From: Polaromonas sp. 39-63-25
Lineage (GTDB): Bacteria; Pseudomonadota; Gammaproteobacteria; Burkholderiales; Burkholderiaceae_C
Assembly (NCBI RefSeq): GCF_002278925.1
Contig: NZ_NCJH01000029.1
Location: forward strand, 1-34,654
Length of the DNA: 34,654 bases
Direction of reading: 5' to 3'
Below the pieces are notes generated by a model that did not search any database, was not told the origin of the DNA, and worked only from the letters and a program-made list of their open reading frames with translations. The translations under genes and the position numbers were made by a program. Positions 4,158 through 30,617 of the stretch are shown here, one piece after another. The first letter of the stretch is position 1; every line of letters begins with the position of its first letter.

Positions 4158-4195
4158 AACTTCTTGTTGTAAACGCCACTCAAGGGCGTTTCAAG

Positions 4196-4211
4196 GTTTC
4201 AGCGCTGAAAC
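4196..4211. promoter_or_regulatory. Candidate parS site 2
   Basis: This is the perfect palindrome GTTTCAGCGCTGAAAC, 26 bases before the parA start codon and just upstream of its ribosome binding site. Because it lies in the parA leader, ParB bound here could also reduce parAB expression. Confidence 0.7.
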
Positions 4212-4236
4212 TCTGACCAACAAAGGAAGGATGCAT

Positions 4237-4926
4237 ATGACTGCAAAGGTAGTGACGGTATTCAACCAAAAAGGGGGTTGTGGCAAGACCACGCTCACCA
4301 TGAGCCTGGCCGGCGCCATGGGGCTTCGGGGCTTCAAGGTCCTCCTGGTGGACATGGACCCCCAGGGAACCGCCGTGCGCTGGGCTGCCGGCGCGACTGA
4401 TGAGAACCCGTTCCCAGCGTCCGTGATGAGCTTGTCCCCCATGGAAGGCAAGATGCACAAGGAAGTGCGGAACCACATGGATGCTTACGACGTCATCCTG
4501 ATCGACTGCCCGCCCTCAATGAATTCCGCCGCGCCGAGCTCTGCGATGCTGATTTCGGATCTGGCCCTCATCCCGGTGGTCCCCAGCCCGGCCGATGTCT
4601 GGGCGGCTCAATCTGCCAAAAAACTTACCGAAGCAGCTCAGGCGACCAATGAGACGCTGCAAGCCTTCGTGGTCGCGAACATGGTTCAAAGCAGGACATC
4701 GCTGGCAAATGACCTGCTGGCTGTCCTCGATGACGACAAGGAAATCCCCCTTTTGAAGAACATGTTGGCCACCAGGACAGCATTTCGTGAGGCCCAGATC
4801 CTGGGCACCACCGTGCACAGCGTCCCCCGGGCACAGGCTGCCATCGACGAGGTCGAAGCAATGACCGATAACATTTTGCAGCTGCTGATGCTGCCAGCCC
4901 GCAAGAAGAAAGGAGTTCCAGCATGA
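4237..4926 (+). CDS. parA: ParA-type plasmid partition ATPase
   Basis: This 229-residue ParA/MinD-type ATPase positions plasmid copies on the nucleoid with ParB and parS. The deviant Walker A motif NQKGGCGKTT lies at residues 9-18, followed by DMDPQGT (Walker A') and VILIDCPPS (Walker B). There is no N-terminal helix-turn-helix extension, as in small type Ib ParA proteins. I start at ATG 4237 because the AAGGAAGG ribosome site ends at 4230; the in-frame ATG at 4231 abuts it. The stop overlaps the parB start (ATGA), so the pair is translationally coupled. It forms the partition part of replicon A with the downstream Rep_3-like initiator. Confidence 0.93.
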   Translation: MTAKVVTVFNQKGGCGKTTLTMSLAGAMGLRGFKVLLVDMDPQGTAVRWAAGATDENPFPASVMSLSPMEGKMHKEVRNHMDAYDVILIDCPPSMNSAAPSSAMLISDLALIPVVPSPADVWAAQSAKKLTEAAQATNETLQAFVVANMVQSRTSLANDLLAVLDDDKEIPLLKNMLATRTAFREAQILGTTVHSVPRAQAAIDEVEAMTDNILQLLMLPARKKKGVPA

Positions 4927-8558: not shown

Positions 8559-8683
8559 TGTAGCCGGTGAAGTCCCAGTGTTGAATTCCACCCAGAATTG
8601 ACCCCTTACGGGCAGTTATTTTCATTGAAATTTGACCCCTGTTAGAAAGTCTGTGCATGCCAAGTTATGCACAGGAGACAGGA

Positions 8684-10263: not shown

Positions 10264-11073
10264 GGTTCTGTTGCAGTAAACATAAACGACAATCCGAGCC
10301 ATGCTTGATTTCCGCAAGAGTTTGATCGACAGCTCCCTGAAGAAGGTCTTGAAACGACTTCACTACCCATTGGAAGTCATGCTCACGTGCGTGCGCTGGT
10401 ATGTTGCCTACCCGCTGAGTCTGCGCCACGTCGAGGAAATGATGCGGGAGCGCGGCGTATTTGTCGACCACACCACGGTGCATCGATGGGCAATCAAAAT
10501 GTTACCGGTGTTGGCCGCTGTTTTCCGGCGGCGCAAACGACCCGTTGGTCTGAGTTGGCGGATGGACGAGACCTATATCAAAGTAGCCGGTCAGAGGAAG
10601 TACCTCTACCGCGCGGTTGACCGCGCAGGCGATACGGTTGACTTTCTTCTCACGGCCAAGCGCGATTTGGCTGCTGCCCGACGGTTTCTGGAGCGCGCCA
10701 TCAACCTGCACGATGTGCCAGAGAAGATCACCATTGACAAGAGCGGCGCCAACACGGCGGCCATTGAGAGCGTCAAGGCCGACGGCTGCGTTGATATCCT
10801 GATGCGTCAAAACAAGTACCTCAACAACATCGTTGAACAAGACCCCCGTGCCATCAAAAGGGTTACGCGACCGATGCTCGGATTCAAGTCCTTTTGGAGC
10901 GCTCGAATCGTCATCGCCGGAATCGAGACCATGCACATGATTCGCAAGGGGCAGCTGAACTGTCCCGCCGGATCAACCGAGTCCGCAGCTGTCCAGTTCT
11001 ATGGACTGGCATTCTGATCAGATGAACGCCAACTGGCTTCTTCGCGACCGCCAGTCATTAATGCAACAAAACC
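10264..11073 (+). mobile_element. Complete IS6-family insertion sequence, no target duplication
   Basis: The left terminal repeat is GGTTCTGTTGCA (10264-10275). The right repeat is its near-perfect inverse, TGCAACAAAACC (11062-11073). The length of 810 bp suits the IS6/IS26 family. The eight bases on either side (GTTTGAAG and CTTTTATC) do not match, so there is no direct target duplication. The left side cuts istB and the right side cuts a parB gene. Confidence 0.88.
10301..11017 (+). CDS. IS6-family transposase
   Basis: This 238-residue single-domain transposase has the IS6-type DDE residues: WRMDETYIKV, then ITIDKSGAN, then GIETMHMIRKGQL. An N-terminal helix-turn-helix (LSLRHVEEMMRERGVFVDHTTVHRW) binds the ends. 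Its length is normal and the frame is unbroken, so it may be active. IS6-family enzymes move by replicative transposition and make cointegrates. That is relevant because this copy lies between two replicons. Confidence 0.92.
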   Translation: MLDFRKSLIDSSLKKVLKRLHYPLEVMLTCVRWYVAYPLSLRHVEEMMRERGVFVDHTTVHRWAIKMLPVLAAVFRRRKRPVGLSWRMDETYIKVAGQRKYLYRAVDRAGDTVDFLLTAKRDLAAARRFLERAINLHDVPEKITIDKSGANTAAIESVKADGCVDILMRQNKYLNNIVEQDPRAIKRVTRPMLGFKSFWSARIVIAGIETMHMIRKGQLNCPAGSTESAAVQFYGLAF

Positions 11074-12772: not shown

Positions 12773-13759
12773 ATGTACAAAGCTACCCAGCCGATGCAAA
12801 AGCTTGATTTCACAGATCTTGAGATCCTTGGTAAGACCAAGAAGCTCCCAAGGGTAGTCAAGGCACCAGAACCACCATTGTCGGCGGGCGCACGGCAAAC
12901 CCGGATCACCAGCTCTCTTGAGAAGATTAAAGATCGCACAACCCAAGCGCTGATTCGCAAGGGAGCAGAAATTGAAGGACGGGTGCTTCAGGCAGTTCTG
13001 CCGATGTGGGACGATGAGAACCGGGGCGTTCCCAACCCCTTCATCCGCTCCGGCCTCTTCAGCGTTAAGAACACGGAAAACCGTGAGTTCATGCAGAAGA
13101 TGCCCATTGCATCACTCTCCAACTACCAAGTCACTTACACGGGGCAGGATCTCCAACAGGACGATCTAAGCGTTTGGATGAGCCTGATCAATCTCGCGCG
13201 GGACCAACCGATGTCCGACCAGATCCTGTTCTCAGGGTATCAGTTGGTGAAGGACCTGGGATGGCGAATGCACTCGGAGTCTTACAAAAGGGCCCAGGAG
13301 TCAATACAGCGCCTCAAGGTAACCGGTATCGAGATCAGCACCAACAATAAAGACAACGCCTACAGCGGTTCGTTAATTCGAGACTTTGCATGGCAGGCCA
13401 TCGATGCGAAAGGTAATGCGCGCTGGATGGTCCGGTTTGAGCCGAGGGTGTCTATCCTCTTTATGGAGGACACTACAACCCTGCTCGAATGGGAAACTCG
13501 GAAAAAAATCGGGACACGGGCAACAGTTGCCCAGTGGCTGCACTCTTTTTATTCGTCACACCGGGACCCGATCCCGCTCAAAGTCGAAAAACTCTACGAG
13601 TTGTGCAGATCCGGTGACTCATTGAGCAGTTTCAGGCGCAACATCAAAAATGCGCTGAACAAGTTGGTGGACGTCGAGTTCTTGACGCACTACACCATCG
13701 TCAACGACACGGTGAATGTCCAGAAGAAGCTCCGGCCGAAACTCGTACGCGCAAAATAG
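12773..13759 (+). CDS. trfA: TrfA-family replication initiator
   Basis: This 328-residue protein matches the TrfA pattern known from IncP plasmids. It contains NPFIRSGLFSVKN, then MPIASLSNYQVTYTGQDL, LVKDLGWRMHSESYKR, SLIRDFAWQ, LLEWETRKKIG and VAQWLHSFYSSHRDPIPLKVEKL. Two winged-helix domains cover most of the chain. AAGG stands five bases before the ATG. Iterons lie directly upstream and a strong terminator follows, so it is a one-gene unit that probably represses itself through the iteron at 12695. It is unrelated in sequence to the Rep_3-like protein at 6912, giving this DNA two initiators. Confidence 0.9.
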   Translation: MYKATQPMQKLDFTDLEILGKTKKLPRVVKAPEPPLSAGARQTRITSSLEKIKDRTTQALIRKGAEIEGRVLQAVLPMWDDENRGVPNPFIRSGLFSVKNTENREFMQKMPIASLSNYQVTYTGQDLQQDDLSVWMSLINLARDQPMSDQILFSGYQLVKDLGWRMHSESYKRAQESIQRLKVTGIEISTNNKDNAYSGSLIRDFAWQAIDAKGNARWMVRFEPRVSILFMEDTTTLLEWETRKKIGTRATVAQWLHSFYSSHRDPIPLKVEKLYELCRSGDSLSSFRRNIKNALNKLVDVEFLTHYTIVNDTVNVQKKLRPKLVRAK

Positions 13760-13838: not shown

Positions 13839-14098
13839 TGTGCGCCCAGCATGGGCGCACTCCCGGAGGTGCAAGTCCTCCCGCGAGCTGGTCACAGTGA
13901 GCGAAGTGAAGCGCAACTGCATGAGGGCGACCGAGTGTGGGAAGGAAGCGTGGAACGTAAATCATGAGCCGATGGACAAGAACCAGATAGAAGGCGTTGC
14001 CGACCAAGGCGATAGTCCCGGGCGAACTGTACGCGCGCGGGACTTCCGGCAAAAGTATCTGGATGTGTTCAAGGATGTCGCGCCTTGAACCCGGTTGA
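13839..14098 (+). other. 5' fragment of a group II intron (class C-like)
   Basis: GTGCGCCCAGCATGGGCGCA begins three bases after the T-run of the trfA terminator. A GGAGGTGCAAGTCCTCC hairpin and blocks such as GAGCGAAGTGAAG and GCAACTGCATGAGGG follow. These resemble domain I of bacterial group II introns, and 5'-GUGCG is their usual first base run. Class C introns are known to insert directly after intrinsic terminators, as here. No reverse transcriptase gene or domain V is present; the next gene (minus strand) ends at 14106, so the intron is cut short. The right boundary is approximate. Confidence 0.65.
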
Positions 14099-14105
14099 CC
14101 TTGCT

Positions 14106-15050
14106 TTACGTCGGTACAGCGGCATTCGTGGCCAATGCAGCCTTCCAGTTATTCTTTGGTGAGAACGCCTGCCAGTGATCAATCTCCGCGACCAGATCGC
14201 CTCCAGAGTCAGGCCAGTACTCGGCTGCCATGCAACTCGAATAGACCGACAGAATCTCCTGGAACTTCTTGGCGCCATTGTTCATGAAGCTCTCGCCGCC
14301 GGTGATGACATGGATCGAATGCGGCTCATCACTTTCAGCAGCAATGAATTCGAACGGCTTTGCGCTAGCTGAACCCTCATAAAGGGAGCGCCCGAAGGTA
14401 TACATGAACGCCTGGAAGTCGTAGCCCATGTCGTTCGCATCGCGCAAGAACGCTGAGCTGGTGGCGTGCCGGGTGGTCTTCAAATCGAAGCTGATATCCG
14501 GGTGGTACAGATCGAACCGAACCTTGAGCATCAGTCCGGTGGTCGGCTCCTGAAAATAGATGCTCACCTCCGCCTGCCCCTCCGCGAGAAAATCACCAAA
14601 GAAGCGACCGCGAACACGGCGATATTTGATTTTCTCGGCAAGGAGGAGGCCCTTGCGAAACGTGGGTTCGTCAATTACCAGGCGTGCCGGATTCGCGGCC
14701 TCAAAGGCCTTGTAATCCTTGTTGCGTGCATCCGCCAGTCCAGGAAAGACAGCAATCTCGTTGCCCACCTGTTGAGGCTCCAGCACGAGCGCATGAACGA
14801 GGCTTCCGAAATCTTTCGCTTTGCTTGATGAATGCAAATTCAGAAGGCTGGCCTGGAAATGCGCCGGCGAAATCAGAAGTGGCTTGAGCATGCTGCAGCT
14901 CAGAACCTCGCGGTCCGCATGGTACGCATGAGAGGTCATGTCGGCGTACATGCGGCTGAAGGGGGTAGCTCCTGCCGTCACGTTGAGACTCAGCTCGTCT
15001 GTCGTGCCAAACAGTGCCGCGGATGAAGTGAGGTCGAATACTTTGTTCAT
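14106..15050 (-). CDS. PD-(D/E)XK nuclease-like protein (RecE/exonuclease VIII-like)
   Basis: This 314-residue protein shows the RecB/RecE nuclease motif series: FGSLVHALVL with His at about 86, VRFDLYHPDISFDLKTT with Asp at about 180 and the D-x-K pair at 189-191, then DFQAFMYTF giving QxxxY at 213-217. It corresponds to the putative exodeoxyribonuclease VIII PDDEXK-like family found in phages and plasmids. There it works as a 5'-3' exonuclease, often beside an annealing protein. I start at ATG 15050, with GGAG ten bases upstream; the frame runs further but into poor sequence. No recombinase partner such as RecT or Bet was recognised nearby. It is transcribed away from the 15242 gene. Confidence 0.75.
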   Translation of the reverse strand: MNKVFDLTSSAALFGTTDELSLNVTAGATPFSRMYADMTSHAYHADREVLSCSMLKPLLISPAHFQASLLNLHSSSKAKDFGSLVHALVLEPQQVGNEIAVFPGLADARNKDYKAFEAANPARLVIDEPTFRKGLLLAEKIKYRRVRGRFFGDFLAEGQAEVSIYFQEPTTGLMLKVRFDLYHPDISFDLKTTRHATSSAFLRDANDMGYDFQAFMYTFGRSLYEGSASAKPFEFIAAESDEPHSIHVITGGESFMNNGAKKFQEILSVYSSCMAAEYWPDSGGDLVAEIDHWQAFSPKNNWKAALATNAAVPT

Positions 15051-15176
15051 GTCTTGGTTGCTCCATTGATGGGCTTGATCTATGAAACCACGGACGCACC
15101 ATCTGTCAAGACGCTCGATGGGTGTGAAAGGCCTCAAATATCGGAACAAAGCGGAAAATTCGTGCGTTGAGCGGGG

Positions 15177-20930: not shown

Positions 20931-22022
20931 GTGAGTGAGATCTTTGCAGGCGTCACGGTCAGCGGCGAGACGCGACTGATCGGCGAGGTGGCTCAAGGCG
21001 CTGCCTGTGGGTGCTTTTGTCGGGTTTGCGGCAGTCCTTTGGTGGCCAAGCAGGGGGAAGTACTCACGTGGCACTTTGCGCACGTTGCCAGACAGGAAAA
21101 TCCCGAGTGCTATGCCGGCGCGCTAAATTTGATCCGCAGGCTCGCCATTGAGGACATTCTTGGCAAGGCGGTTCTGAAACTGCCTGAATGCCACGTCACG
21201 ATTCGTCGCCCAAGCAGGCTGGGGCATTCTGATGCAAAGCTGGCCTGGCAGCCTGAATTCGAGCGATGGGTGGACTTCGCGATGGATGCACCGAAGGGGG
21301 CCACCGTTGCACGCATTCACCTGGTGGACGGGGAAATAGCTGAGCTTTCCGTAGAAGCCACTGAATCGCCGATTTCCGCGTTGCCGGTCGCGGTGGGCGA
21401 CGCGGGAATGATCGTTTGCCGGTTCCCGATTCCAGCTCCCAAGCACCTTCGGACGTTCGAAGCGGCGATGGCGCAAATTCGCGCAACGGCTGCCTGGCAA
21501 TGGATCCGCGTGCCGGCAGGCGCAGCACAGGTGAAGCGCGCAATTGAGCAACTTGATGCCCAAGATCGCCTTGAGGCGGCCAGGATCGACAAGCTAGCTC
21601 ATCAGAGGGCGATCGAGGCGGGCAGCCGGTGGGCGGGCATAGCTAGGCGAAACCGTGCTGGAGAGGCTTTCCTGCGGCCTCGTCCAGCGTTCGGCCCCCC
21701 TCCCACCGGGGGCGGGGCAGAGGATGCTCTGCCCGGCCGTTCGCCGGGTTGCACGCTGACGTTCTACAGGCTCCCCGATTCAAAGTTGTGGGTACGCTAC
21801 ATGCGCTCTGATCGAAGGTATGTGGTCATCCCGTTTCCGGGTTACCAGTGGAACGGTTGGGAAAACGACCTTCCGCCGGCAGTGGGACGATACGACCCGG
21901 AGCTCAAGGCTTTCGTTTTGGATGACGTGTTCCGTGGCATGGAAGCTTTGGCCGCGCTTTCATCGACCGTGAAGTCTGGCCGAAGCTTGGCGGAGTTCAC
22001 TTCAGACCCCTTTGAGAACTGA
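20931..22022 (+). CDS. CoiA-like protein
   Basis: This 363-residue protein starts at GTG 20931. The N-terminus has GCFCRVCGSPLVAKQGEVLT followed by WHFAHVARQENPECYAGALN. A CxxC knuckle and an HFAH motif are the hallmarks of CoiA-like proteins, which were first linked to competence and are thought to be nuclease-related. The middle has many small helices (KRAIEQLDAQDRLEAARIDK) and a Gly/Pro hinge. The C-terminal third (YRLPDSKLWVRYMRSDRRYV) is not recognised. It lies between the TraB-like gene and the PRTRC region. The 47-base gap upstream is short and no promoter is obvious. Confidence 0.6.
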   Translation: MSEIFAGVTVSGETRLIGEVAQGAACGCFCRVCGSPLVAKQGEVLTWHFAHVARQENPECYAGALNLIRRLAIEDILGKAVLKLPECHVTIRRPSRLGHSDAKLAWQPEFERWVDFAMDAPKGATVARIHLVDGEIAELSVEATESPISALPVAVGDAGMIVCRFPIPAPKHLRTFEAAMAQIRATAAWQWIRVPAGAAQVKRAIEQLDAQDRLEAARIDKLAHQRAIEAGSRWAGIARRNRAGEAFLRPRPAFGPPPTGGGAEDALPGRSPGCTLTFYRLPDSKLWVRYMRSDRRYVVIPFPGYQWNGWENDLPPAVGRYDPELKAFVLDDVFRGMEALAALSSTVKSGRSLAEFTSDPFEN

Positions 22023-22083
22023 GGTGGGCTTTCAGGACTGGCGCGACTCGCGGGCAAGCCACTTTCTGACTGGTCGAGATCTG

Positions 22084-22234
22084 TTGCAGCGCGGCAGATC
22101 GGCTGCTAATATGCCATTGCCTCCTCACTTTGAGGACTCGCGTGCGCAATGCACGCCGCATTTCAACCCATACGGGGATTCACATCCCCTTGGGATTCGT
22201 GGGTCCCCGTTTTTCTTTTCAGAAAGACAAACCC
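22084..22234 (+). promoter_or_regulatory. Promoter and structured leader L1 (of PRTRC parB)
   Basis: TTGCAG (22084-22089), 17 bases, then TAATAT (22107-22112) gives a leader of about 116 nt. It folds into a CCTC/GAGG hairpin, a GCGTGC/GCACGC hairpin and GGGGA-N6-TCCCC (22174-22189), which is enclosed by CCCA/TGGG. A last hairpin pairs GTGGGT (from 22199) with ACCCAT, which includes the start codon. Leaders L2-L4 at 25162, 27882 and 29361 share this order and spacing. No Rfam family is recognised. Confidence 0.7.
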
Positions 22235-24025
22235 ATGACAGAAGTACTGGAACGGCCAATCGGCCAGGAATCGCCCGTCGTTCACGATCAGGGCGAGGAC
22301 GTAAACATCGCTGTTGGCGAACTCATCTCCGGGTTCAACTACCGTCGCCGCCTCAACGCAGCGAAGGAAGCCTCGTTCGATGAGGACATCAAACGCAACG
22401 GGCAACTTCAGGGCCTGATCTTCAGGAAGCTCGAAACGGGGGGCCTTCAGATCCTTGCCGGGCATCGCCGTGCGATGTCGATCAGCCGCGTGTTTGGTCC
22501 GGAGTACCGGGTTTTTGGCAAGGCCAAGACGTACTCCAACGCCGAAGCCATCGCGGTGATGGTGAGCGAGAACTACAACCGCGAAGACCCCACCGCCATC
22601 GAAGACGCCGAAGCGGCGACCCGCCTCCTCGGTGAAATGAATGGCGACAAGGACGAAACCGCTCGCCGGCTCGGTTGGAAACGGCCGCTGCTCGATCGCC
22701 GACTGGCGATCATGAATGCGACGGACAGTGTGCGTGACGCCTTCATTGAAGAGAAGTTGCACCTTGGCCATGTCGAGATTCTTGCTGCCATGCCCCGCGA
22801 GGCGCAGGAAAAGGTACTCGTGAAGTTGCTGGCTGCGCCAGTGATGCCCACCGTAGAACAGCTGAAGGCCATGGCCGAACAGGTTCTGCTCGGGCTCGAG
22901 GCAGCGATCTTCGACAAGGCCGATTGCAATGGCTGCAAGTTCAATACTGGCAACCAGCAGGCCCTGTTCGACACGTCGTTTTCAGGTACCCGCTGCACAA
23001 ACGGTGCTTGCTACGGTGAGAAGACCGAGAAGGAACTCGAAACGCGCCGCATGGCGTTGACCGAGACCTACCAGGTCGTGCGGATTGTCCGCCCAGGGGA
23101 TAACTTGACGGTCAATCCCTTGCGCGCCGAAGGCAAGCTTGGCGTGGGTGCTGAACAGGCGCTCGCGTGTCGCACCTGTGCTGACTTTGGTGCCTGCATT
23201 TCAGGGGTACCGGACAAGCTGGGTATGAGCTTCAAGGATGTCTGCTTCAACAAGACGTGCCTTGACACCAAGGTCGGCATCCGTGCCGCGGCAGAGGAGG
23301 CCGCGCGGGAAGCTGCAGCTGCTTCGATCGAGAGCGCCGCAAGCGCTGCAATTGACGCAAGCGCCAAGACGGATCGCGCGCCGGGAAGCGCTGGTGAAGG
23401 CCAGGGTTCCAACGAGGATCGGAAGCAATCGCAGAAGACCAAAACGTCCACCGTGAAGGTCGCTGCTTCTTCTGAGCCGCGGAACGCAGTGAAGGAATTT
23501 CGCGAGAAGATCTGGCGCGGCGTATTCCATCGTGGAGCGTTGAAGTTGTCGGTGGAGAAAAGCCGAGCCTTGTTGCTCGCGCTGTGTCTCTACCGTCCGT
23601 CCACCCTCGACTCGCACGCAGCAGTGGAGGCGATTGAACGCGAAACGGGAATGGGAAGCGTTGGGAAACTTGATGCTTTCCAACTTACCAGCGAGATCCT
23701 GGCCATGGACGTTAAGGCCCTTGGCAGTGCGTTGTTTCAGATTCCAGCGGCGGTCACAACCAGCCTGGAGATCACGGCGGTTGTCGGATTTCTGAAGGCC
23801 TTGGGGATTCAGATCGAGAGCCACTGGAAGATCAACGCAGCGTTTTTTGATCTGCTGACCAAGACCGAAATCGACGCCGTGTGCATCGAACTCGGGATGG
23901 ACAAGGCGGTTGGCAAGGAATATGCAAAGCTGAAGAACGGCGGCAAGGCCGACTTCATCAAGGCCATCATGGCGATTGAAGGTTTCGAGTATGTAGGGAA
24001 AATTCCGGCGTTCATGCGCTGGTAA
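22235..24025 (+). CDS. PRTRC system ParB-family protein
   Basis: This 596-residue protein has a ParB N-terminal domain with ISGFNYRRRLN (about residues 31-41) and the ILAGHRRAM box (about 73-81). A helix-turn-helix region (ETARRLGWKRPLLDRRL) follows. Next comes a Cys-rich insert of two clusters, CNGCKF...CTNGACYG and CRTCADFGAC...VCFNKTCLD, likely to bind zinc. The second half has an Ala-rich linker and a helical C-terminal domain. This long, zinc-carrying form is what I know as the PRTRC ParB. It is the third ParB-like gene in the window. ATG 22235 lies at the 3' end of leader L1, where it can pair in the last hairpin. PRTRC function is not established. Confidence 0.88.
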   Translation: MTEVLERPIGQESPVVHDQGEDVNIAVGELISGFNYRRRLNAAKEASFDEDIKRNGQLQGLIFRKLETGGLQILAGHRRAMSISRVFGPEYRVFGKAKTYSNAEAIAVMVSENYNREDPTAIEDAEAATRLLGEMNGDKDETARRLGWKRPLLDRRLAIMNATDSVRDAFIEEKLHLGHVEILAAMPREAQEKVLVKLLAAPVMPTVEQLKAMAEQVLLGLEAAIFDKADCNGCKFNTGNQQALFDTSFSGTRCTNGACYGEKTEKELETRRMALTETYQVVRIVRPGDNLTVNPLRAEGKLGVGAEQALACRTCADFGACISGVPDKLGMSFKDVCFNKTCLDTKVGIRAAAEEAAREAAAASIESAASAAIDASAKTDRAPGSAGEGQGSNEDRKQSQKTKTSTVKVAASSEPRNAVKEFREKIWRGVFHRGALKLSVEKSRALLLALCLYRPSTLDSHAAVEAIERETGMGSVGKLDAFQLTSEILAMDVKALGSALFQIPAAVTTSLEITAVVGFLKALGIQIESHWKINAAFFDLLTKTEIDAVCIELGMDKAVGKEYAKLKNGGKADFIKAIMAIEGFEYVGKIPAFMRW

Positions 24026-24115
24026 CTGCCCTCGCTTCGTACCAATCACACAAACCTTCGCGGGTGTTCTGCCCGGAGGGGTAGTTCATCCGCAATTCTT
24101 TTCTTAGGATATGCA

Positions 24116-24640
24116 ATGAATCTTTTTCAACAATTGGCCCCTCTGGTTTCGAGCGGGATCGTGATGCGGATGACAGTTCGCATGCATGGCGACAAGCTGC
24201 AGCTGGACATCATCCCCGAGGTCGAGGCAGGCAAAACCGGCATTTCCGTGCCGGCGCAGGCCTTGATCGGGACCGCTGAAGAACTTGACGCTGGTGTGCC
24301 GGGCTTTCTTGCAGCCTACGCACAATCAGCGGCAGACCTCAATGAGCAGATCGCTGTTGCAAATGCCGTTATGGGCAAGGCGCAGGATGCTGCCAAAGAG
24401 GTGGTGAAAGCTGCGGCCTCCAAGGTCAAGCCGACGAGTGCAGCCGGTGCCAAGCCATCTGCAAAAACCAACGAAGTCAAAACCGACCGCACGGCGGCGG
24501 GCTTCCTGGACATGGACGACGACGAGAACGCAGAAGGCGGGGACGAAGCAGAGTCCCCGTCAGCTGCGGAGAAAAGCACCCCCGTCGCGCCTGATCTTCC
24601 GATCAGCGCAACCGGCGAGACTCCCAACATGTTCATGTGA
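24116..24640 (+). CDS. PRTRC system protein E
   Basis: This 174-residue protein has a conserved N-terminal half (LFQQLAPLVSSGIVMRMTVR, then LQLDIIPEVEAG and GTAEELDAGVPGFLAAYAQS). An Ala/Lys-rich coiled helix and an acidic, disordered tail (MDDDENAEGGDEAES) follow. The first half matches the PRTRC E pattern. AGGA lies six bases before the ATG. The 90-base gap before it holds a hairpin, CGGGTGTTCTGCCCG, enclosed by ACC/GGGGT pairing, which is loosely like the third hairpin of leaders L1-L4. The product is probably cytoplasmic. Protein C follows after seven bases, so E and C are cotranscribed. Confidence 0.82.
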   Translation: MNLFQQLAPLVSSGIVMRMTVRMHGDKLQLDIIPEVEAGKTGISVPAQALIGTAEELDAGVPGFLAAYAQSAADLNEQIAVANAVMGKAQDAAKEVVKAAASKVKPTSAAGAKPSAKTNEVKTDRTAAGFLDMDDDENAEGGDEAESPSAAEKSTPVAPDLPISATGETPNMFM

Positions 24641-24647
24641 GGCGATC

Positions 24648-25049
24648 ATGCAAGTACTCCAAATTGTCCGCAAGTTCAACTACAACGGGATTGCCTTGGT
24701 GGACCCGAATCCTGCGTTGAGCATTGATGCTGTGCGCGAGTTCTACGCCACCCAGTACCCGGAGCTCAACAATTCGGTCATCGAAGGCCCGGTTACCAAA
24801 GGGCAGGAAGCGACCTACAAGTTCCTCCGCGCTGTTGGCGACAAGGGTGCCAACAACCAGGGTGCAACCCTGCGTGGCAAGGTTCGCGATCTCGCCGCTG
24901 GCAAGGGTGGCGCGACCGTGAAAGTGATTGAGCCGGTTTTGACCGGCTCGTGCGCAGTGATTTACGCCGCGTGCTTTGGCGTGGTCACTTCGAAGCAAGT
25001 CGGCCGCCCGATCAAAATGCCCTCTCAGGCATTTGGGATCTGGGGCTAA
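24648..25049 (+). CDS. PRTRC system protein C with C-terminal extension (ubiquitin-like candidate)
   Basis: Residues 1-67 follow the PRTRC C pattern: VRKFNYNGIALVDPNPALS, EFYATQYPELNNSVIEGP, and ATYKFLRAVGDKG ending at about 67. This family has been proposed to have a ubiquitin-like beta-grasp fold, and as I remember it usually stops soon after the GTKG-like end. Here 66 more residues follow, containing GKVRDLAAGKGGATVKVIEP and a hydrophobic stretch (SCAVIYAACFGVV, about 101-113). If C is a protein modifier, this tail could be a precursor peptide removed after Gly67, a fusion, or a new domain. An intrinsic terminator follows 41 bases after the stop. Confidence 0.8.
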   Translation: MQVLQIVRKFNYNGIALVDPNPALSIDAVREFYATQYPELNNSVIEGPVTKGQEATYKFLRAVGDKGANNQGATLRGKVRDLAAGKGGATVKVIEPVLTGSCAVIYAACFGVVTSKQVGRPIKMPSQAFGIWG

Positions 25050-25090
25050 ACGGCGGGATCTGAAATCCGTCAGCATTTCTGAGAGCGAGA

Positions 25091-25132
25091 AGCCACTTGG
25101 CCCCATTTATGGGGTCAGGTGGCTTTTTTTTT
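25091..25132 (+). terminator. Intrinsic terminator after the E-C genes
   Basis: AGCCAC pairs with GTGGCT and CCCC with GGGG across an ATTTAT loop, followed by nine T residues. It separates the parB-E-C unit from the promoter of leader L2, 30 bases later. Confidence 0.9.
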
Positions 25133-25161
25133 GCCTGCTAATTTTCAATGGCTTCGATCGT

Positions 25162-25314
25162 TTGCCAGGCCGGTCAAACTTTAGTAAAGTCTTTTCGTCT
25201 TCGCATCATTGCGAGTCCGCGAGCAGGCCTCTAGCCTGTTTCGCATTACTTTTACCCACTGGGAATCCACACACCCAGCGGGTCCGTGGGTTTCCGCTTT
25301 CAATTGGAAAACCC
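25162..25314 (+). promoter_or_regulatory. Promoter and structured leader L2
   Basis: TTGCCA (25162-25167), 17 bases, then TAAAGT (25185-25190). The leader of about 118 nt folds into TCGCA-tcat-TGCGA, AGGC/GCCT, CTGGG-N10-CCCAG (25259-25278), and a last hairpin pairing GTGGGTTTCC (25286-25295) with GGAAAACCCAT (25306-25316). The last stem covers both the Shine-Dalgarno sequence and the first two bases of the start codon. It is the clearest of the four leaders. Confidence 0.75.
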
Positions 25315-25791
25315 ATGAAATCATCAACCCAAGATCTTGCTACTCGCGCTCAGCTGGCGCGCTCGTCTGTGCCGTTCGAAAAACGCACATTCCTGAAATT
25401 CACGGCGCCGGGCCTGAATGGCCAGGATGTGACTTTGGTCTTCGAGGCAAGTAGCTACAAATGCGGCGCTCCGCTGCATCTGCAGCTCTGGTCGAATGAC
25501 CACGAGGAACCTTGCTTCTGGTCGCCGTATGTGACTCTCACGAAAAGTGCGGAGCCCAGTGGTTGCCAGGACGGTGAGATCGTCGTCAAAACGAGCGACG
25601 AAAACGCCCATCTGCGAGACGTCCTCTTGACTCGCGGTTTCTTCGAAGACACCGGCCGTCGTCTGCGTGCGGGTTACAGCGTGCTGGAAATCTGGACCAT
25701 GACGGACCTGTTCACGGCCGCACTTGAAGAAGTGCTCGGTGCGCAGAAGCCTGCGAAGAAGACAAAAGCGAAAGCGGCTGCTTTGACTTGA
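25315..25791 (+). CDS. DUF4313-like plasmid protein
   Basis: This small 158-residue protein has alternating strands (TFLKFTAPGLNGQDVTLVFE, APLHLQLWSND, PYVTLTKSAEP) and a LRDVLLTRGFFEDTGRRLRAGY segment near the end. That order (beta-rich start, then loss of the N-terminal helix and a 'G-x-F-x-x-T-G-R' turn) resembles DUF4313 proteins of plasmids, whose function is unknown. The C-terminus is Lys/Ala-rich (QKPAKKTKAKAA). It stands alone between leader L2 and a strong hairpin at 25831. The start codon is fixed by the GGAAA site, which leader L2 can hide. Confidence 0.6.
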   Translation: MKSSTQDLATRAQLARSSVPFEKRTFLKFTAPGLNGQDVTLVFEASSYKCGAPLHLQLWSNDHEEPCFWSPYVTLTKSAEPSGCQDGEIVVKTSDENAHLRDVLLTRGFFEDTGRRLRAGYSVLEIWTMTDLFTAALEEVLGAQKPAKKTKAKAAALT

Positions 25792-25830
25792 CCTGACACG
25801 TCGAATCTTCACCCGCAACACAACCAATTG

Positions 25831-25865
25831 AGGGGCCGGACACACATTGTGTGCCGGCCCCTTTT
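25831..25865 (+). terminator. Terminator-like hairpin directly before the 25883 gene
   Basis: GGGGCCGG (25832-25839), an ACACAC/GTGTG extension with an ATT loop, CCGGCCCC and TTTT form a strong hairpin and short T-run. Only 17 bases separate it from the next start codon, which leaves no room for a promoter. It must therefore either end the previous unit with some readthrough or act as an attenuator in the leader of the 25883 gene. Confidence 0.8.
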
Positions 25866-25882
25866 CACTATGGAAATCAAAA

Positions 25883-27505
25883 ATGACTGATCAGTTTAGC
25901 TTTAACCTGGCTTTCGAACCGCAGGGGAACTACACCCTCCGTCTCGCAAGTGGAGCCACAGAGGCGTATCCGACCTTGGGCGACATGATGGTAGGACTCA
26001 ACCGCACGCGTCGGGATCCCGAGGCAAGAATCCTGGGTCTCACTGGCAGCACGAAAGCAACCCTGAAAACGGGTGAATGCTGTGAAATTGTCCAGGCCCA
26101 CAATCACCTTGGGATTCGTTTGCCATCCGAGGACGGGAATTGCCAGGCCTTGATTGACGCGTACCTCGATGAAGTTGAGCCATACGGGAAGGACACGAAT
26201 GGCCGCGTCAAGCATCCGTGGGAAATGACGCAGGGCGAGTGGGGCGCGTTGACCTCGTTCGGGAGTGTCCTCTATGGGGTCATTCCGTGGCTATCACCCA
26301 CCCAGAGGGCTCAGACCTGCGTGACAGCTGGAGCAGAGCGGTGTGGACCACTTGACTACGGACTCGACCTTTTCAGGCGGCGGATGGGCTTCGGGCACAA
26401 CGGCCCGACCTACGACGGCGAAAATACCAACTCGCGCCACGAGGTACACGTTGGGTACGCATTGGCGGCCGGCAAGCCAGTTCCGCAGGCAGTGATCGAC
26501 GAGTACCTGGACCAGGGAGAAGAGGTTCAGTATCGGGATCCGTGGTTCGAGGCACTGTTGGCGAAGCCTTTCCTGCGCGGAAGGGTAAGCCGTGATCGAC
26601 TTGCGCAGTTGGTCACATTGTTGGACTGGCGCGGCGATGGACTTGCAAACCTGACCGAGGAAGTGGCCAGTCATGCAATTGAGCAGATCGCAAGACTTCC
26701 GGCATCTGCAGGACCCATTGAGGTCGACAACGAGCTCTACCTTGCCGGGATCCTTAAGGTACGCACCTTGAACGATTCGTTGAGCGCGAGCGACATTGGC
26801 ACGCCTCACAACGAGTTCGCAGCGACCGTCCGAGACCTGCTTGTGGCCGAACATCGAATAGCTGGACACCTCCGCGTGCAGAAGGCTCTGGATGACGGGA
26901 ACATGACATTTCGCGAGGCTGCTTTTGCTCGCCTGCTGGCAGATTCCACTGAGCGAACGGCAACCTACTGCCACGCCAATCGGCTGGCGAAGGCGATCGA
27001 GGCCGGGGACATCGGATTCTTACTGGACACGCTCGATGGCACTGGGAACGACATCAGCAAGAAGGCTATCGAATCCTTCTTTCAAACGAAGTTGCGCAAT
27101 GTGAAGGCCGCAGAGCGGCGCAAGGCGATATTCGCACTTGCCGGGCACGTCACCGAGCAGCAGATGGCTGCGGCCGAGGCCGAACTTAAGGTCCGCCGGG
27201 AGGCAAGTCATGCGGCGAGGGAGGTCATTGCGGAGGCAAAGCGCAAAAAGAACGCGGATGACCATGCAAAATGGAAGGCCTCATCAACGAAATACAAGTT
27301 TGAGGGCAAGATCATGACGGGCGCAGAGTTCGTGGAGCTGATTGTCAGCCGGGGGTTCTTGCAGTTGCGGACCCGGAAGGTTGGGGCGGTAACTCACCAC
27401 TATCTCGGCAACACGGCGACCTCGGAAAGCTACCGGTTGCGTGTGAATGACGGGACCCTCGACTATGCGAAATTGGTACTTGATCGCCAGACCGAGACCG
27501 TCTAA
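25883..27505 (+). CDS. Unknown 540-residue protein of the PRTRC region
   Basis: No family is recognised. The N-terminal third is mixed strand and loop and contains HPWEMTQGEWGALTSFGSVL. The stretch from about 130 to 400 looks like helical repeats (LAQLVTLLDWRGDGLANLTE; ATVRDLLVAEHRIAGHLRVQ). The last 150 residues have a long charged helix (AAAEAELKVRREASHAAREV) and a small beta C-terminal domain with GAVTHHYLG. GGAAA lies before the ATG, in the same form as at genes led by L1-L4. A strong terminator follows, so this is a single-gene unit or depends on readthrough through the hairpin at 25831. No signal peptide or membrane span is seen. Confidence 0.72.
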   Translation: MTDQFSFNLAFEPQGNYTLRLASGATEAYPTLGDMMVGLNRTRRDPEARILGLTGSTKATLKTGECCEIVQAHNHLGIRLPSEDGNCQALIDAYLDEVEPYGKDTNGRVKHPWEMTQGEWGALTSFGSVLYGVIPWLSPTQRAQTCVTAGAERCGPLDYGLDLFRRRMGFGHNGPTYDGENTNSRHEVHVGYALAAGKPVPQAVIDEYLDQGEEVQYRDPWFEALLAKPFLRGRVSRDRLAQLVTLLDWRGDGLANLTEEVASHAIEQIARLPASAGPIEVDNELYLAGILKVRTLNDSLSASDIGTPHNEFAATVRDLLVAEHRIAGHLRVQKALDDGNMTFREAAFARLLADSTERTATYCHANRLAKAIEAGDIGFLLDTLDGTGNDISKKAIESFFQTKLRNVKAAERRKAIFALAGHVTEQQMAAAEAELKVRREASHAAREVIAEAKRKKNADDHAKWKASSTKYKFEGKIMTGAEFVELIVSRGFLQLRTRKVGAVTHHYLGNTATSESYRLRVNDGTLDYAKLVLDRQTETV

Positions 27506-27527
27506 CTGCTGCTGTAGCAGCACCAAA

Positions 27528-27561
27528 AACACCCAAGGCTCGCGCCCTGGGTGTTTTTTTT
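27528..27561 (+). terminator. Intrinsic terminator after the 25883 gene
   Basis: AACACCC and GGGTGTT form the stem of a hairpin (27528-27555) ending in eight T residues. Confidence 0.92.
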
Positions 27562-27686
27562 GCCTGCCTCGATGCTCCGTCTGGCGGTCGAGCGTTCATG
27601 CATTTAAAGAGTGGTCGCTACAGGTCTTGCCTGATTCGATTTGCAGGTGTGCGTCGGCCAGATGCCGGCAGAAAAAAAGGAAAGAA

Positions 27687-27752
27687 ATGAACGATTTCAG
27701 ATTTTGGCTTGTAGCACTGCTGTGTGTGTTTCTCTTGAAATACTGTTCCTGA
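27687..27752 (+). CDS. 21-residue membrane peptide
   Basis: AAAAAGGAAAG is placed ideally before ATG 27687. The product begins MNDFRFWLVALLCVFLLK and ends YCS, so nearly the whole peptide is one membrane span. It sits alone between the terminator at 27528 and leader L3. Small plasmid toxins (Hok, TisB, Ibs type) and short membrane regulators look like this, but it could also be an unimportant leader peptide. The rest of 27562-27881 holds G+C-rich sequence with a GCGCC/GGCGC inverted pair around 27836-27866 and no other gene. Confidence 0.45.
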   Translation: MNDFRFWLVALLCVFLLKYCS

Positions 27753-27881
27753 GCATCCCCCCGAGGGGCGTTCGTGGCGCCTCTCGTGGGTTTCACCCTG
27801 CCGGTCAGGTGCCCAGCCTCCACGTGGCCTCGGGCGCGCCCCCGCTCCTTTGGGCCCCGATGGCGCATAGACCACCATCAT

Positions 27882-28033
27882 TTGCGAATACGTTCACTCC
27901 GGGGCACAATTCAATCGTCATTGGCTCCATGCCAGTTTCGCCGGACTAGTTTCGGCCTTCAACATCAATCCACCGGGATCCTCATCCCGGTTGGGCTGAG
28001 GCTCTCGGTTTTCTTCTTATAGGAATCCCGAAA
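27882..28033 (+). promoter_or_regulatory. Promoter and structured leader L3
   Basis: TTGCGA (27882-27887), 17 bases, then CACAAT (27905-27910). The leader of about 117 nt shows TTGGC-tccat-GCCA, CCG/CGG, CCGGGAT-cctc-ATCCCGG (27973-27990) enclosed by TCCA/TGGG, and a last hairpin. In that hairpin TCGG and TTTC pair with GGAA and CCGA (28005-28031), covering the Shine-Dalgarno sequence AGGAA. Confidence 0.7.
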
Positions 28034-28888
28034 ATGAGTCTCAAACAACAAGCTGAAATCTGGCTGCGTACCGTCGTTTCGAAACATCTTGGCAGCAACA
28101 TCCGCCGTTACAAGTGGAGTTCGTATTTGGGCGAGGTCAGCCACAATTCCCTCGGCGGCATCTCGTTCCTGCCACCCTGCGAAGGCAAGGTTGCGGAAGT
28201 CAGTGACGAGTTCACCCTCGTGAAAACCGCCGCAAGCTGCTTCTGCGTCGTGTCGAACGCGTTGCTGGGTCAGCCGGTCGCTGAAGGCGACAAGATCGGC
28301 CTGACGTTCTACAAGCCCAAGCGCTTCGACGGGACCAAGGCCGACGGCTCGGATGATCCTTCCGAGGGCGGGGTCCGAACCGTCATGCTCACCGGTGCGG
28401 CCAGCCTGTTTCCCGTCAAATGGGAGGGCCGGTACCTGGGAATAAACGACCGTTTTGCTGACGCCTACACCGAGATACGCAATCCCTACCTGCGTGACTT
28501 GATAACCCAGCTCGAACGCATGCCAGTTTCGAACGGGCTGCGCGCAGTCGTGAACGTGCTGATTGACGCCAACGCCACGGGTCTGACCTTCAACGATCCG
28601 GCGGAAAGCGAAAGTGCGTCAAGTCCCCCGGCGATCCGGATGTCTGTGAGCACTGAAAAGCACAAGGGCCAGGTCGAAATTTCGTATGACCGGGCAATGG
28701 ACGTCTACGCAGTCAGGCTCACCCCCGACAGTGGCTCCGGTCCCCTGGTGCTCGAAAACGTGTACTTCAACCAGCTGGGCGAGGTGCTCATCGACGGCAT
28801 TGATGACGGCCGCTGGATGCTCGCCGCGGTCGCGATGATCAAGCCGGCGCCGAAAAAGCGGAAGCTGGCCCAGCCAGAAGAAGCCTGA
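28034..28888 (+). CDS. Unknown 284-residue protein of the PRTRC region
   Basis: The N-terminal half is beta-rich (GGISFLPPCEGKVAEVSDEF, TAASCFCVVSNALLGQPVAE, GDKIGLTFYKPKRFDG) and looks like a small barrel. A helical part (LRDLITQLERMPVSNGLRAV) and a second beta domain with VLIDGIDDGRWMLAAVAMIK follow. The tail is basic (KPAPKKRKLA). No known family comes to mind, and no membrane span or signal peptide is seen. The start is set by AGGAA seven bases upstream, in leader L3. A 12-bp hairpin without a T-run lies 20 bases after the stop. Confidence 0.7.
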   Translation: MSLKQQAEIWLRTVVSKHLGSNIRRYKWSSYLGEVSHNSLGGISFLPPCEGKVAEVSDEFTLVKTAASCFCVVSNALLGQPVAEGDKIGLTFYKPKRFDGTKADGSDDPSEGGVRTVMLTGAASLFPVKWEGRYLGINDRFADAYTEIRNPYLRDLITQLERMPVSNGLRAVVNVLIDANATGLTFNDPAESESASSPPAIRMSVSTEKHKGQVEISYDRAMDVYAVRLTPDSGSGPLVLENVYFNQLGEVLIDGIDDGRWMLAAVAMIKPAPKKRKLAQPEEA

Positions 28889-28908
28889 CCGGTTGATTTG
28901 CATAGGTC

Positions 28909-28939
28909 GTGGCTCTACCCTGAAAAGGGGTAGGGCCAC
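28909..28939 (+). terminator. Stable hairpin after the 28034 gene, no T-run
   Basis: GTGGCTCTACCC pairs with GGGTAGGGCCAC over 12 base pairs (one U-G) around a short A-rich loop. ACTGCC follows rather than T residues, so it may protect the mRNA end or belong to the next leader instead of ending transcription. Confidence 0.5.
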
Positions 28940-29026
28940 TGCCTGATGCGACAACTGGAGCTTCACGCAAATTCCCTTCACGAGCCCTGCTCCTTTAGGG
29001 CGCAGGGCCATCCTTCTGGAGTCGCC

Positions 29027-29269
29027 TTGTCATCTCGCTCAAACTATCACCTGCTCAGCAGGTCACGCCAGGCATTCTTTGGCCATCTCCGCGCCACAGG
29101 TGTGTTGCCGATCCACCACCTTGTCCGGATCATCCTGGACAAGGGCTACAGCGCACGCGTTCGCTCTGCTGCGCTTCGAAACTTGGTTGTCGCCGCTCCC
29201 GTTGAGGTCACCCTCGGGCAACCGTATGCCGTTCGCCGGCTGCTGGTTCGAAAGCACTACCAGGTCTGA
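29027..29269 (+). CDS. Small basic unknown protein
   Basis: From TTG 29027, with GGAG five bases upstream, the frame gives an 80-residue basic protein (SSRSNYHLLSRSRQAFFGHL, then HHLVRIILDKGYSARVRSAA) ending LLVRKHYQV. The spacing of helices and basic residues would fit nucleic-acid binding, but no family is recognised. The open frame continues upstream to ATG 28946 in sequence that looks like an untranslated leader. It has a strong hairpin (GCCCTGC/GCAGGGC, 28984-29008) and a CTCC that could pair with the GGAG site. That leader may be a degenerate fifth copy of the L1-L4 type. A terminator follows. Confidence 0.5.
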   Translation: MSSRSNYHLLSRSRQAFFGHLRATGVLPIHHLVRIILDKGYSARVRSAALRNLVVAAPVEVTLGQPYAVRRLLVRKHYQV

Positions 29270-29318
29270 AGCGTCCATGTGACTGTTCAGACCCTGAATT
29301 TCCCGAACAAACCCGCGA

Positions 29319-29348
29319 ATCCGCCTCTCTGAGAGGCGGATTTTTTTT
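29319..29348 (+). terminator. Intrinsic terminator after the 29027 gene
   Basis: AATCCGCCTC pairs with GAGGCGGATT and a run of eight T residues closes the signal, just before promoter L4. Confidence 0.92.
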
Positions 29349-29360
29349 GGCCGTCAACTT

Positions 29361-29501
29361 TTGCACTTCGTCTGGAAATCAGCTAGATTTGGGGTGTTTG
29401 GCTTCATGCCTTTCGCGCGCCTGCTCACTGCAGAGTGCGCATCTCATTCACCCTCGGGAACTCATCCCGCTGGGCATGGGTTCCTGTTCATAAGGAACTC
29501 C
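29361..29501 (+). promoter_or_regulatory. Promoter and structured leader L4 (of the F-B-A-thiF operon)
   Basis: TTGCAC (29361-29366), 17 bases, then TAGATT (29384-29389). The leader of about 106 nt has GGC-ttcat-GCC, CTGC/GCAG, CGGGA-actca-TCCCG (29455-29469) enclosed by CCC/GGG, and a last hairpin pairing GGGTTCC (29478-29484) with GGAACTCC (29494-29501). The last stem covers the Shine-Dalgarno sequence AAGGAA. It controls the four-gene operon that follows. Confidence 0.75.
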
Positions 29502-30617
29502 ATGAAAAACAGTCTTTTGGAGCGCCCACGGCTGACAAGCCCTGGAAGATTTGTGCTCCCCCAGATCGCTACGGATATTCCGGCGCGTCTGGGAAAGGAA
29601 TCCGTCAAGCACCAGGTACTGGCTAAGTTTGCACTTGCCGCCGAAGCGATCGGCCTACCGCTGCCTGGTGGCGATTTCGTTTCGATTGAAGAGGTAGTTC
29701 ACCAGCAATGGGGGAACTACTACAACGCGACGATGGCGCCGGAATCGAACCAGTTCCTCGCGGGCAACCTCGAAATCGTTGTATCGAACAAGCGGCTGGA
29801 GGCGCGAATTGCGTCGAGTCCCAATCTCGTCATTGTTCAGGCAAAGCCGGTCATTACCGCCTTGGAATCGAAAATGCCCGGCCTCGGCTGGTATGTGATG
29901 GATGTACTTGGACGGGCCGCGGGGCACGGCATGAACGTCTATGACTGCCACCTCGTTGGGTATCAGTCGCAGAGCTATCTTTTCGAAGCTGAAAGCGACG
30001 AGGAGTTTGCCAAGAACCTCTTCAATGAGGAACATGGCAGCGGCCCAAAGGCCGAAGATATTCCCATGCTCATTGAGGCCTACCGGGATGACTATGCGTA
30101 TCTCCCGTCCGACGTGCTGCGGCAGGTTGATGGGCACAAGCACCTGCTTGGCTGGACAGATAGCAGCGAGGCGGGCAGACGCAGGGCTTTCGTAAGCAAG
30201 CATGCAGAAGCGGCGCTTGCTGGAATCGCTCTTGATCCCGGATTTGCCAAATGCGTCCAGGCCGCTATCGCGCTGGACAAGTTGTTCAAAAAGGACAAGG
30301 CCCGGGCGTTCAGCTGGTCGGGCGAAGAGGTTGACCCTGAGGACGGAGAGGACTTTGGCGACTACCCCGAACAGGTCGGGGCGGTGTGCATCGTCGCCTG
30401 GGAAGAGACCGACATGCTGCTTGAGATGATTGAGCACTCGGAGAGGGGGGCCTATGAAAATGGGACAGCCTACGAGTACCAGGGAATGGCCTGGGTTCCT
30501 CTCGATGCCTCAAGCAAAGAAATCAAAAATTTGGCCCGTGATCTTCGGGCTTACTTAGAACGATGGAATGCGATGGCCTTGCTGGTCTCGTGTTTCCCGT
30601 TCGCAGAGGAACAATGA
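29502..30617 (+). CDS. PRTRC system protein F
   Basis: This 371-residue protein has a start (SLLERPRLTSPGRFVLPQIA, then DIPARLGKESVKHQVLAKFA) and an ALESKMPGLGWYVMDVLGRA segment that fit the PRTRC F family as I know it. The middle is mixed and acidic (DDYAYLPSDVLRQVDGHKHL; VDPEDGEDFGDYPEQV). The last 100 residues are helical. No enzyme motif or membrane span is visible and no function is known. The ATG lies directly after the hidden ribosome site of leader L4. Protein B starts two bases after its stop, so it is the first gene of the F-B-A-thiF operon. Confidence 0.83.
   Translation: MKNSLLERPRLTSPGRFVLPQIATDIPARLGKESVKHQVLAKFALAAEAIGLPLPGGDFVSIEEVVHQQWGNYYNATMAPESNQFLAGNLEIVVSNKRLEARIASSPNLVIVQAKPVITALESKMPGLGWYVMDVLGRAAGHGMNVYDCHLVGYQSQSYLFEAESDEEFAKNLFNEEHGSGPKAEDIPMLIEAYRDDYAYLPSDVLRQVDGHKHLLGWTDSSEAGRRRAFVSKHAEAALAGIALDPGFAKCVQAAIALDKLFKKDKARAFSWSGEEVDPEDGEDFGDYPEQVGAVCIVAWEETDMLLEMIEHSERGAYENGTAYEYQGMAWVPLDASSKEIKNLARDLRAYLERWNAMALLVSCFPFAEEQ

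Follow-up and report, generated by a model that had tools for sequence, protein, structure and literature searches.

A shared folded leader over the ribosome-binding site of many plasmid and island genes of Pseudomonadota points to common translational control

Leaders that sequester the ribosome-binding site (RBS), among them RNA thermometers and the leaders of ribosomal protein genes, hold both the Shine-Dalgarno sequence (SD) and the AUG in paired form, and as a kind they are already known. Dispersed repeats can also define a plasmid regulon, as do reportedly the CUP elements of pKM101, which are said to act on transcription under regulation by ArdK and are not known as covarying RBS leaders. 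EGeRS1 is a structured repeat that precedes a number of establishment operons on a single conjugative plasmid (pLS20 family); it is described as 400-600 bp long, present on Gram-positive plasmids and located upstream of the RBS, with a mechanism that is not known (PMC8708921). The single-stranded promoters Frpo/ssi are likewise folded repeats before mobile-element genes, but what folds is a DNA promoter (PMC11541004). STAXI (RF01728) and EFASI (RF02957) are structured RNAs from the same kind of gene neighbourhood, and STAXI is described (PMC2864571) as a repeated pseudoknot not located at start codons. Here we describe a leader that occurs in four copies (L1 to L4), or five, in a contig of Polaromonas sp. 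39-63-25 (NZ_NCJH01000029.1; the whole stretch of 34,654 nucleotides (nt) is called the window). In contrast to EGeRS1, the core of this leader measures about 70 nt, often occurs once per gene and includes the SD and the AUG; unlike Frpo/ssi, the leader follows ordinary promoter-like sites, or is without any in its vicinity, and it covers the RBS; and, unlike RBS-sequestering leaders in general, one family serves many genes that are unrelated to each other but belong to one mobile element. A common folded leader over the ribosome site of many plasmid and island genes points to shared translational control.

The core is set on the start codon and consists of two hairpins, H3 and H4. Its consensus reads, from the 5' end, a UUCAACCC-like lead-in, which is conserved and single-stranded, 1-3 nt, (c)GGG.., a short loop, ..CCC(g), 1-3 nt, GGG and then H4. 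In H3 the CC/GG and GGG/CCC pairs are near-invariant and the flanking pairs variable. H4 is laid out as a 5' arm complementary to SD, spacer and AUG, a U-rich loop, GGAG and the AUG; its pairing takes in the SD, the spacer and a portion of the AUG, and the hairpin varies with compensatory changes. L1 to L4 lie at the positions given in a first-pass annotation of the window, each running from a promoter-like site through H1 and H2 to H3 and H4. All four -35 boxes start with TTGC, the spacers are of 17 bp and the -10 box is weak in L3; the fold z scores against dinucleotide shuffles were -5.52, -6.49, -4.64 and -5.30, respectively, with 0 of 200 shuffles as stable for each leader. Sequence and folds (z -4.64 to -6.49) thus bear out the promoters and the hairpin order that had been proposed. 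Two further details stood in part: the TCAT-like loop of H1 is present in L2 to L4 but does not hold across the 29 promoter-borne leaders of the family, and the last hairpin does cover the SD, but in L3 the H4 arm stops short of the AUG, which in the minimum-energy fold pairs further upstream. The copies and their genes are listed below, with scores from the covariance models R1 and R2, which are defined after the list; a promoter-like site is one that scores at least 8 of 12 in the promoter scan.

22084..22112, + strand: L1 promoter, TTGCAG-17-TAATAT (-35 at 22084, -10 at 22107), from the sequence; promoter score 7, below the cut-off of 8
22122..22156, + strand: L1 5' hairpins H1 (22122-22136) and H2 (22140-22156), from folding
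22160..22237, + strand: L1 core, with single-stranded linker, H3 (22167-22194) and RBS-hiding H4 (22199-22236); R1 30.6 bits, R2 44.2 bits
22235, + strand: gene for PRTRC ParB, behind L1 (TIGR03734 match)
24047..24118, + strand: possible weak fifth copy, H3-H4; R1 18.8 bits, E 0.15; R2 18.9 bits, E 0.054
24116, + strand: gene for PRTRC_E, behind the possible fifth copy (TIGR03741 match)
25162..25190, + strand: L2 promoter, TTGCCA-17-TAAAGT (-35 at 25162, -10 at 25185), from the sequence and the promoter scan
about 25200-25244, + strand: L2 H1-H2
25247..25317, + strand: L2 core, H3-H4; R1 27.0 bits, R2 40.6 bits; fold z -6.49
25315, + strand: gene of 158 aa behind L2, no NCBIfam or Pfam match
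27882..27910, + strand: L3 promoter, TTGCGA-17-CACAAT with a weak -10 box (-35 at 27882, -10 at 27905), from the sequence alone, outside the promoter scan
27962..28036, + strand: L3 core, H3-H4; R1 20.9 bits, R2 38.1 bits; the model match stops at 28030
28034, + strand: gene of 284 aa behind L3, no NCBIfam or Pfam match
29361..29389, + strand: L4 promoter, TTGCAC-17-TAGATT (-35 at 29361, -10 at 29384), from the sequence and the promoter scan
29444..29504, + strand: L4 core, H3-H4; R1 28.2 bits, R2 38.9 bits
29502, + strand: gene for PRTRC F, behind L4 (TIGR03742 match)

The four genes had been called unrelated; two are now identified as PRTRC ParB and PRTRC F, and the other two are without a family match. 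A fifth leader copy may precede PRTRC_E, which we consider doubtful; it was absent from the training rows of R2, and the promoter scan found no promoter-like site upstream of it.

Close relatives of the window locus were found in Polaromonas and in a metagenome-assembled genome of Burkholderiales, and plasmid 1 of Polaromonas JS666 proved by blastn to contain related leaders. By folding and a hairpin descriptor, similar leaders were seen before the genes of PRTRC ParB, E and F, and before others, in JS666 plasmid 1, two Hydrogenophaga plasmids and an Azonexus plasmid. Since MAFFT aligned the leaders poorly, a seed of five sequences, all from outside the window, was used for the covariance model R1. 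Run on 420 kb, R1 gave E 3.7e-4 for L1, 1.3e-3 for L4 and 2.3e-3 for L2, only 0.052 for L3 and 0.15 for the fifth copy. The 62 R1 matches with E<=0.1, of which one or more read a hairpin on the reverse strand, made up alignment A6 and, from it, model R2, which gave L1 to L4, themselves among its 62 training rows, E 3.4e-8, 2.7e-7, 1.1e-6 and 6.9e-7. Model calibration was brief and E-values are rough throughout. The window's own genome (4.83 Mb) had 14 R1 matches at E<=10, eight of them with E<0.03 and confined to 4 of the 54 contigs; R2 added one on a fifth contig (C30, E 3.9e-4). The family was also detected in plasmids that held no training rows (pRA1, pCAR1, pMOL28, the P. graminis plasmid and pQBR103), and we regard it as almost certainly real, with L1 to L4 as true members.

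Covariation with pairing kept, which the first-pass annotation had claimed, was confirmed in both alignments. In A6, 90.6% of the cells were paired, cells with double changes numbered 109 as compared with 30.0 in shuffles, and 12 of the 15 pairs had double changes. A7 comprised the best 150 of 165 R2 matches from 20 regions unused for R2 plus the window (146 of the 150 rows were new to R2; 147 distinct rows were counted); here 89.6% of the cells were paired, with 295 double-change cells against 91.2 and double changes in 13 of the 15 pairs. The covariation score, about 0.35 in A6 and in A7, did not exceed 0.06 once the partner was slid by 1-3 columns. Among the top nine column pairs by mutual information seven were model pairs; an eighth (13-31), absent from the model, lengthens the H3 stem, and the ninth (59-63) has the probable look of an alignment shift. 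The minimum free energy of the core gave a mean z of -3.9, with 93 of 100 sampled leaders below -2. With -45..+3 folded, positions -10 to -2 were unpaired at 0.22-0.29 in 226 leader genes and at 0.40-0.60 in 230 control genes of the same elements; the 226 are distinct A7, A8 and A9 cores whose start codon coincides exactly with the end of the model and begins an open reading frame (ORF) of at least 30 codons, all other rows, L3 included, being dropped. Pair 13-31, the core energies and the start-site accessibility are lines of evidence less dependent on the fit to the model.

The thermosensor and the riboswitch that had been suggested for these leaders are both disfavoured by prediction. An RBS sequestered in a hairpin is what an RNA thermosensor would have, but the last 42 nt have a predicted energy of about -13.5 kcal/mol at 37 C, the SD is predicted to stay paired at 42 C (in the 226 leaders, L3 excluded, its unpaired fraction is 0.24 at 10 C as against 0.26 at 42 C), and the separate conserved H3 would be superfluous, so that we give a thermosensor very little chance. 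A metabolite riboswitch with H3 as the aptamer, for which a conserved hairpin beside the RBS platform would speak, seems just as improbable: no competing helix inside the core is among the top pairs by mutual information, the aptamer would be very small, and unrelated gene functions with up to 24 matches per plasmid would be unusual. Visual inspection made an antisequestor helix between the ACCC lead-in and the 5' arm of H4 plausible for L1 and L2 though not for L3; it was absent from the mutual information and was discarded.

No Rfam family accounts for the leaders, in line with the annotation, which had recognised no known family. At the gathering threshold of Rfam 15 no match overlapped a leader in the window or in L164, L166, L168, L170, L172, L173, L175, L204, L205, L036 and L207, and permissive scans of 22040-22300 (L1) and 27880-29560 (L3, L4) gave sub-threshold matches only; L2 and the fifth copy were scanned at the gathering threshold only. 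A literature search that covered neither subscription papers nor preprints found no paper on these leaders.

The leaders are placed at start codons. In ten loci with annotated coding sequences (L041 in part), 58 of 89 matches with E<=1 ended within 3 nt of an annotated start, a placement expected for 0.33% of random strand-specific positions; L042 and L043, also scanned, had no match. Two settings can be told apart. Promoter-borne copies, the type seen in the window, carry two additional 5' hairpins; promoter-like sites accumulate at 50-79 nt before the core (21, versus 4 in shuffles, for the 226 leaders), and the stretch from promoter to core folds with a mean z of -2.9 (n=29), against -1.4 in 80 sampled others. 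The second setting is that of short intercistronic gaps in gene arrays: 60 of the 226 leaders come after another leader gene within 260 nt, and in 25 of these 60 the upstream stop lies -10 to +20 nt from the core. In L036, inspection by eye found a leader (10963-11028) followed by an ORF of 21 codons whose stop overlaps the annotated start at 11025 (ATGA), which suggests translational coupling.

This placement bears on two other explanations. As an element of RNA processing or stability, the leader would offer cleavage or protection sites in H3 and H4 that split multigene transcripts, cleavage freeing the RBS. Although the intercistronic copies and the H1-H2 hairpins behind promoter-like sites would suit this, H4 is short for RNase III, processing is unneeded for promoter-borne copies and the pairing of the SD is maintained, and we hold it to be improbable. 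An element that acts in conjugation as single-stranded DNA (Frpo/ssi-like or similar) and not as RNA would fit with leader genes that in some cases resemble establishment or DNA-metabolism genes and with the STAXI matches upstream of one cluster. Promoter-like sites with a score of at least 8 are, however, found 50-79 nt upstream of the core and none 0-49 nt upstream, so that -35 and -10 boxes do not fall inside the folded element as in Frpo/ssi, and the conserved stem holds SD and AUG, which matter in mRNA; we think such an element highly unlikely. As the transfer origin was not located, "leading region" is not used here as a general label.

The annotation had seen a shared regulatory RNA coordinating PRTRC genes. 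The shared structured leader stands, but the PRTRC scope is too narrow, since 39 of the 47 leader-bearing genomes or records tested lack PRTRC ThiF (8 have it) and leaders precede genes for bet, exo, methylase, VWA, AAA ATPase, ArdC-like and unknown proteins; an RNA specific to PRTRC is thereby ruled out. Conversely, among 12 genomes other than the window's with PRTRC ThiF above the cut-off, 10 carry leaders, and the PRTRC-carrying plasmids EbN1 p1 and pPNAP01 have 0 and 1 matches.

In 16 records scanned as whole plasmids with R2 at E<=0.01, a few matches being reverse-strand reads, those with training rows had 24 (JS666 p1), 17 (PBL-H3), 7 (BPS33), 5 (JS666 p2), 24 (Azonexus) and 14 (R. ferrireducens) matches, and those without had 8 (pMOL28), 8 (P. 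graminis), 10 (pRA1), 4 (pCAR1), 2 (pQBR103) and 1 (pPNAP01); EbN1 p1, F, pWW0 and R388 had 0. A second scan at E<=0.1 gave 32 matches (pRA1 15, pMOL28 10, pCAR1 7) and none on the pieces of F, pWW0, R388 and EbN1 that were scanned (EbN1 minus its last 7.4 kb). On pRA1, an IncA plasmid of 144 kb, the 15 matches fall within 74-100 kb, and 17 of the 33 plus-strand coding sequences checked in this module have a match at E<=1; its leader genes encode AAA ATPase, bet, exo, DUF3150, VWA, DUF3085, cytosine methylase, 5'-deoxynucleotidase and unknowns. Ten proteins scanned behind leaders of other elements gave, among other matches, ArdC/methylase, RecT, YqaJ exonuclease, VWA/CobT, cytosine methylase, DUF6094 and SNF2 helicase. 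With R2 at E<=0.01, positive genomes numbered 46 among the 299 of the taxonomic family and 18 among the 398 of the phylum (the window's genome in both), where chance alone, at these rough E-values, predicts about 3 and 4. Many positive genomes have several matches within 5-20 kb, on contigs or chromosomes, and chromosomal clusters carry leaders too.

Our preferred reading, to which we give a probability of roughly 0.55, is that these are cis-acting translational leaders of large mobile elements that combine a lock with trans-acting control. H4 would be the lock, keeping translation low by default, and H3 an identity tag recognised by a common trans-acting factor, which could be a protein or an RNA and be encoded by the host or by the element. 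This factor would open the lock or close it further, and scattered genes of one element would so be joined in one post-transcriptional regulon. Several observations weigh against it. The alignments were fitted to the model and contain some rows that nearly duplicate one another, and the model's AUG end favours ATGs. In the wider context of -70..+30 the gap in accessibility of -14..+3 shrinks to a modest 0.379 versus 0.449 (it is 0.480 once the upstream part is shuffled, in 150 leaders), and structured start sites can still be translated. Away from annotated starts lie 31 of the 89 matches, which include reverse-strand reads of the same hairpins and possibly mis-annotated starts and false matches, and a share of the positive genomes is what chance predicts. 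No evident partner emerged either: among 12 leader-bearing plasmids scanned, CsrA is element-encoded on 2 (pCAR1, 114125-114280, and pQBR103, 387402-387557) and a ProQ/FinO domain on 0, being present on the leader-free F, so that both were rejected as plasmid-encoded partners, and a family scan of ten shared proteins showed no evident translational regulator.

The absence of an evident plasmid partner across many hosts would suit a self-contained initiation unit, that is, an insulator whose own folding gives shuffled genes a context-independent start and which regulates nothing. Ribosomal protein S1 would dock on the single-stranded lead-in and the U-rich loop of H4 and open H4 constitutively. 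Such a unit would agree with the carriage by unrelated genes, with the U-rich loop (positions -17 to -13, 0.66-0.77 unpaired) and with the short array gaps and nearby upstream stops. Yet the near-invariant pairs of H3 exceed what insulation needs, the SD itself is kept paired, and other genes of the same elements do without a leader, as in the pRA1 module; we judge the insulator unlikely, if less so than the other alternatives. It is the near-invariant H3 sequence that leads us to prefer a trans-acting factor.

Proteins that go with the leaders were sought by blastp (E<=1e-3) in a small, hand-picked set of plasmids, six with leaders and four without. All six shared a MobH relaxase, a UvrD-like helicase and a toprim primase-like protein, which were in none of the four, and a relative of AcaB was in five of six and none of four. 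The AcaB-family protein of pRA1 matches PDB 6n8a/6n8b, and the 216-aa AcaB protein had no relative in viral contigs. In all five plasmids having it, the AcaB-family gene is divergent from a leader and no more than 1.4 kb away:

pRA1: AcaB gene 72850-73500, - strand; leaders at about 73725 (E 0.07) and 74138, + strand
pCAR1: AcaB gene 152591-153277, - strand; leader at 153621, + strand
JS666 p1: AcaB gene 190173-191060, - strand; leader at 191525, + strand
PBL-H3: AcaB gene 28354-29217, - strand; leaders at about 29854 (E 0.04) and 30252, + strand
Azonexus plasmid: AcaB gene 125403-126095, + strand; leader 123975-124042, - strand

Because AcaB is described as a transcriptional activator (PMC11493245 and PMC9927553), this adjacency may reflect synteny, or the same genes may be subject to transcriptional control as an additional layer. 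More tentatively, conjugative plasmids and islands from several families of Pseudomonadota, the IncA reference included, might share a common RNA lock by which one trans-acting cue, such as arrival in a new host or a program linked to AcaB, could switch translation of the whole set of recombination, methylation, partition and unknown genes.

If the preferred reading of a lock under trans-acting control is true, a sizeable and mostly uncharacterised gene set of environmental and IncA-type plasmids obeys a single translational control that has gone unrecognised, RNA levels would misreport the expression of leader genes, and simple reporters could test when, after transfer, genes for recombination, methylation and partition come into play. 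R2 provides a sequence handle for finding leader-controlled genes.

Other structured RNAs occur in the same surroundings. In L172, two STAXI RNAs (1911-2068 and 4179-4333) and an EFASI RNA (2540-2687) precede an array of leader genes whose first position is 4374; neither family overlaps leader matches. An sbcD RNA (RF01757) lies at 8688-8842 of pMOL28 (L205), the plasmid with 8 leader matches. Another PRTRC plasmid, pPNAP01 (L039), has a different recurrent leader at about 13870-13950, 14574-14666 and 20937-21018, composed of a long GGCTTGCCGTTA..TAACGGCAAGCC-type hairpin and then a hairpin near the RBS, which may represent an analogous second family. In the window, the only match at the Rfam gathering threshold is a piece of group II intron (group-II-D1D4-3, 39.1 bits) at 13921-14083, between ORFs 12773-13759 (+) and 14106-15149 (-), possibly an intron remnant. 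Two transposase-like ORFs (8657-10237 and 10301-11017), noticed by eye in the ORF list, lie downstream of the Rep gene.

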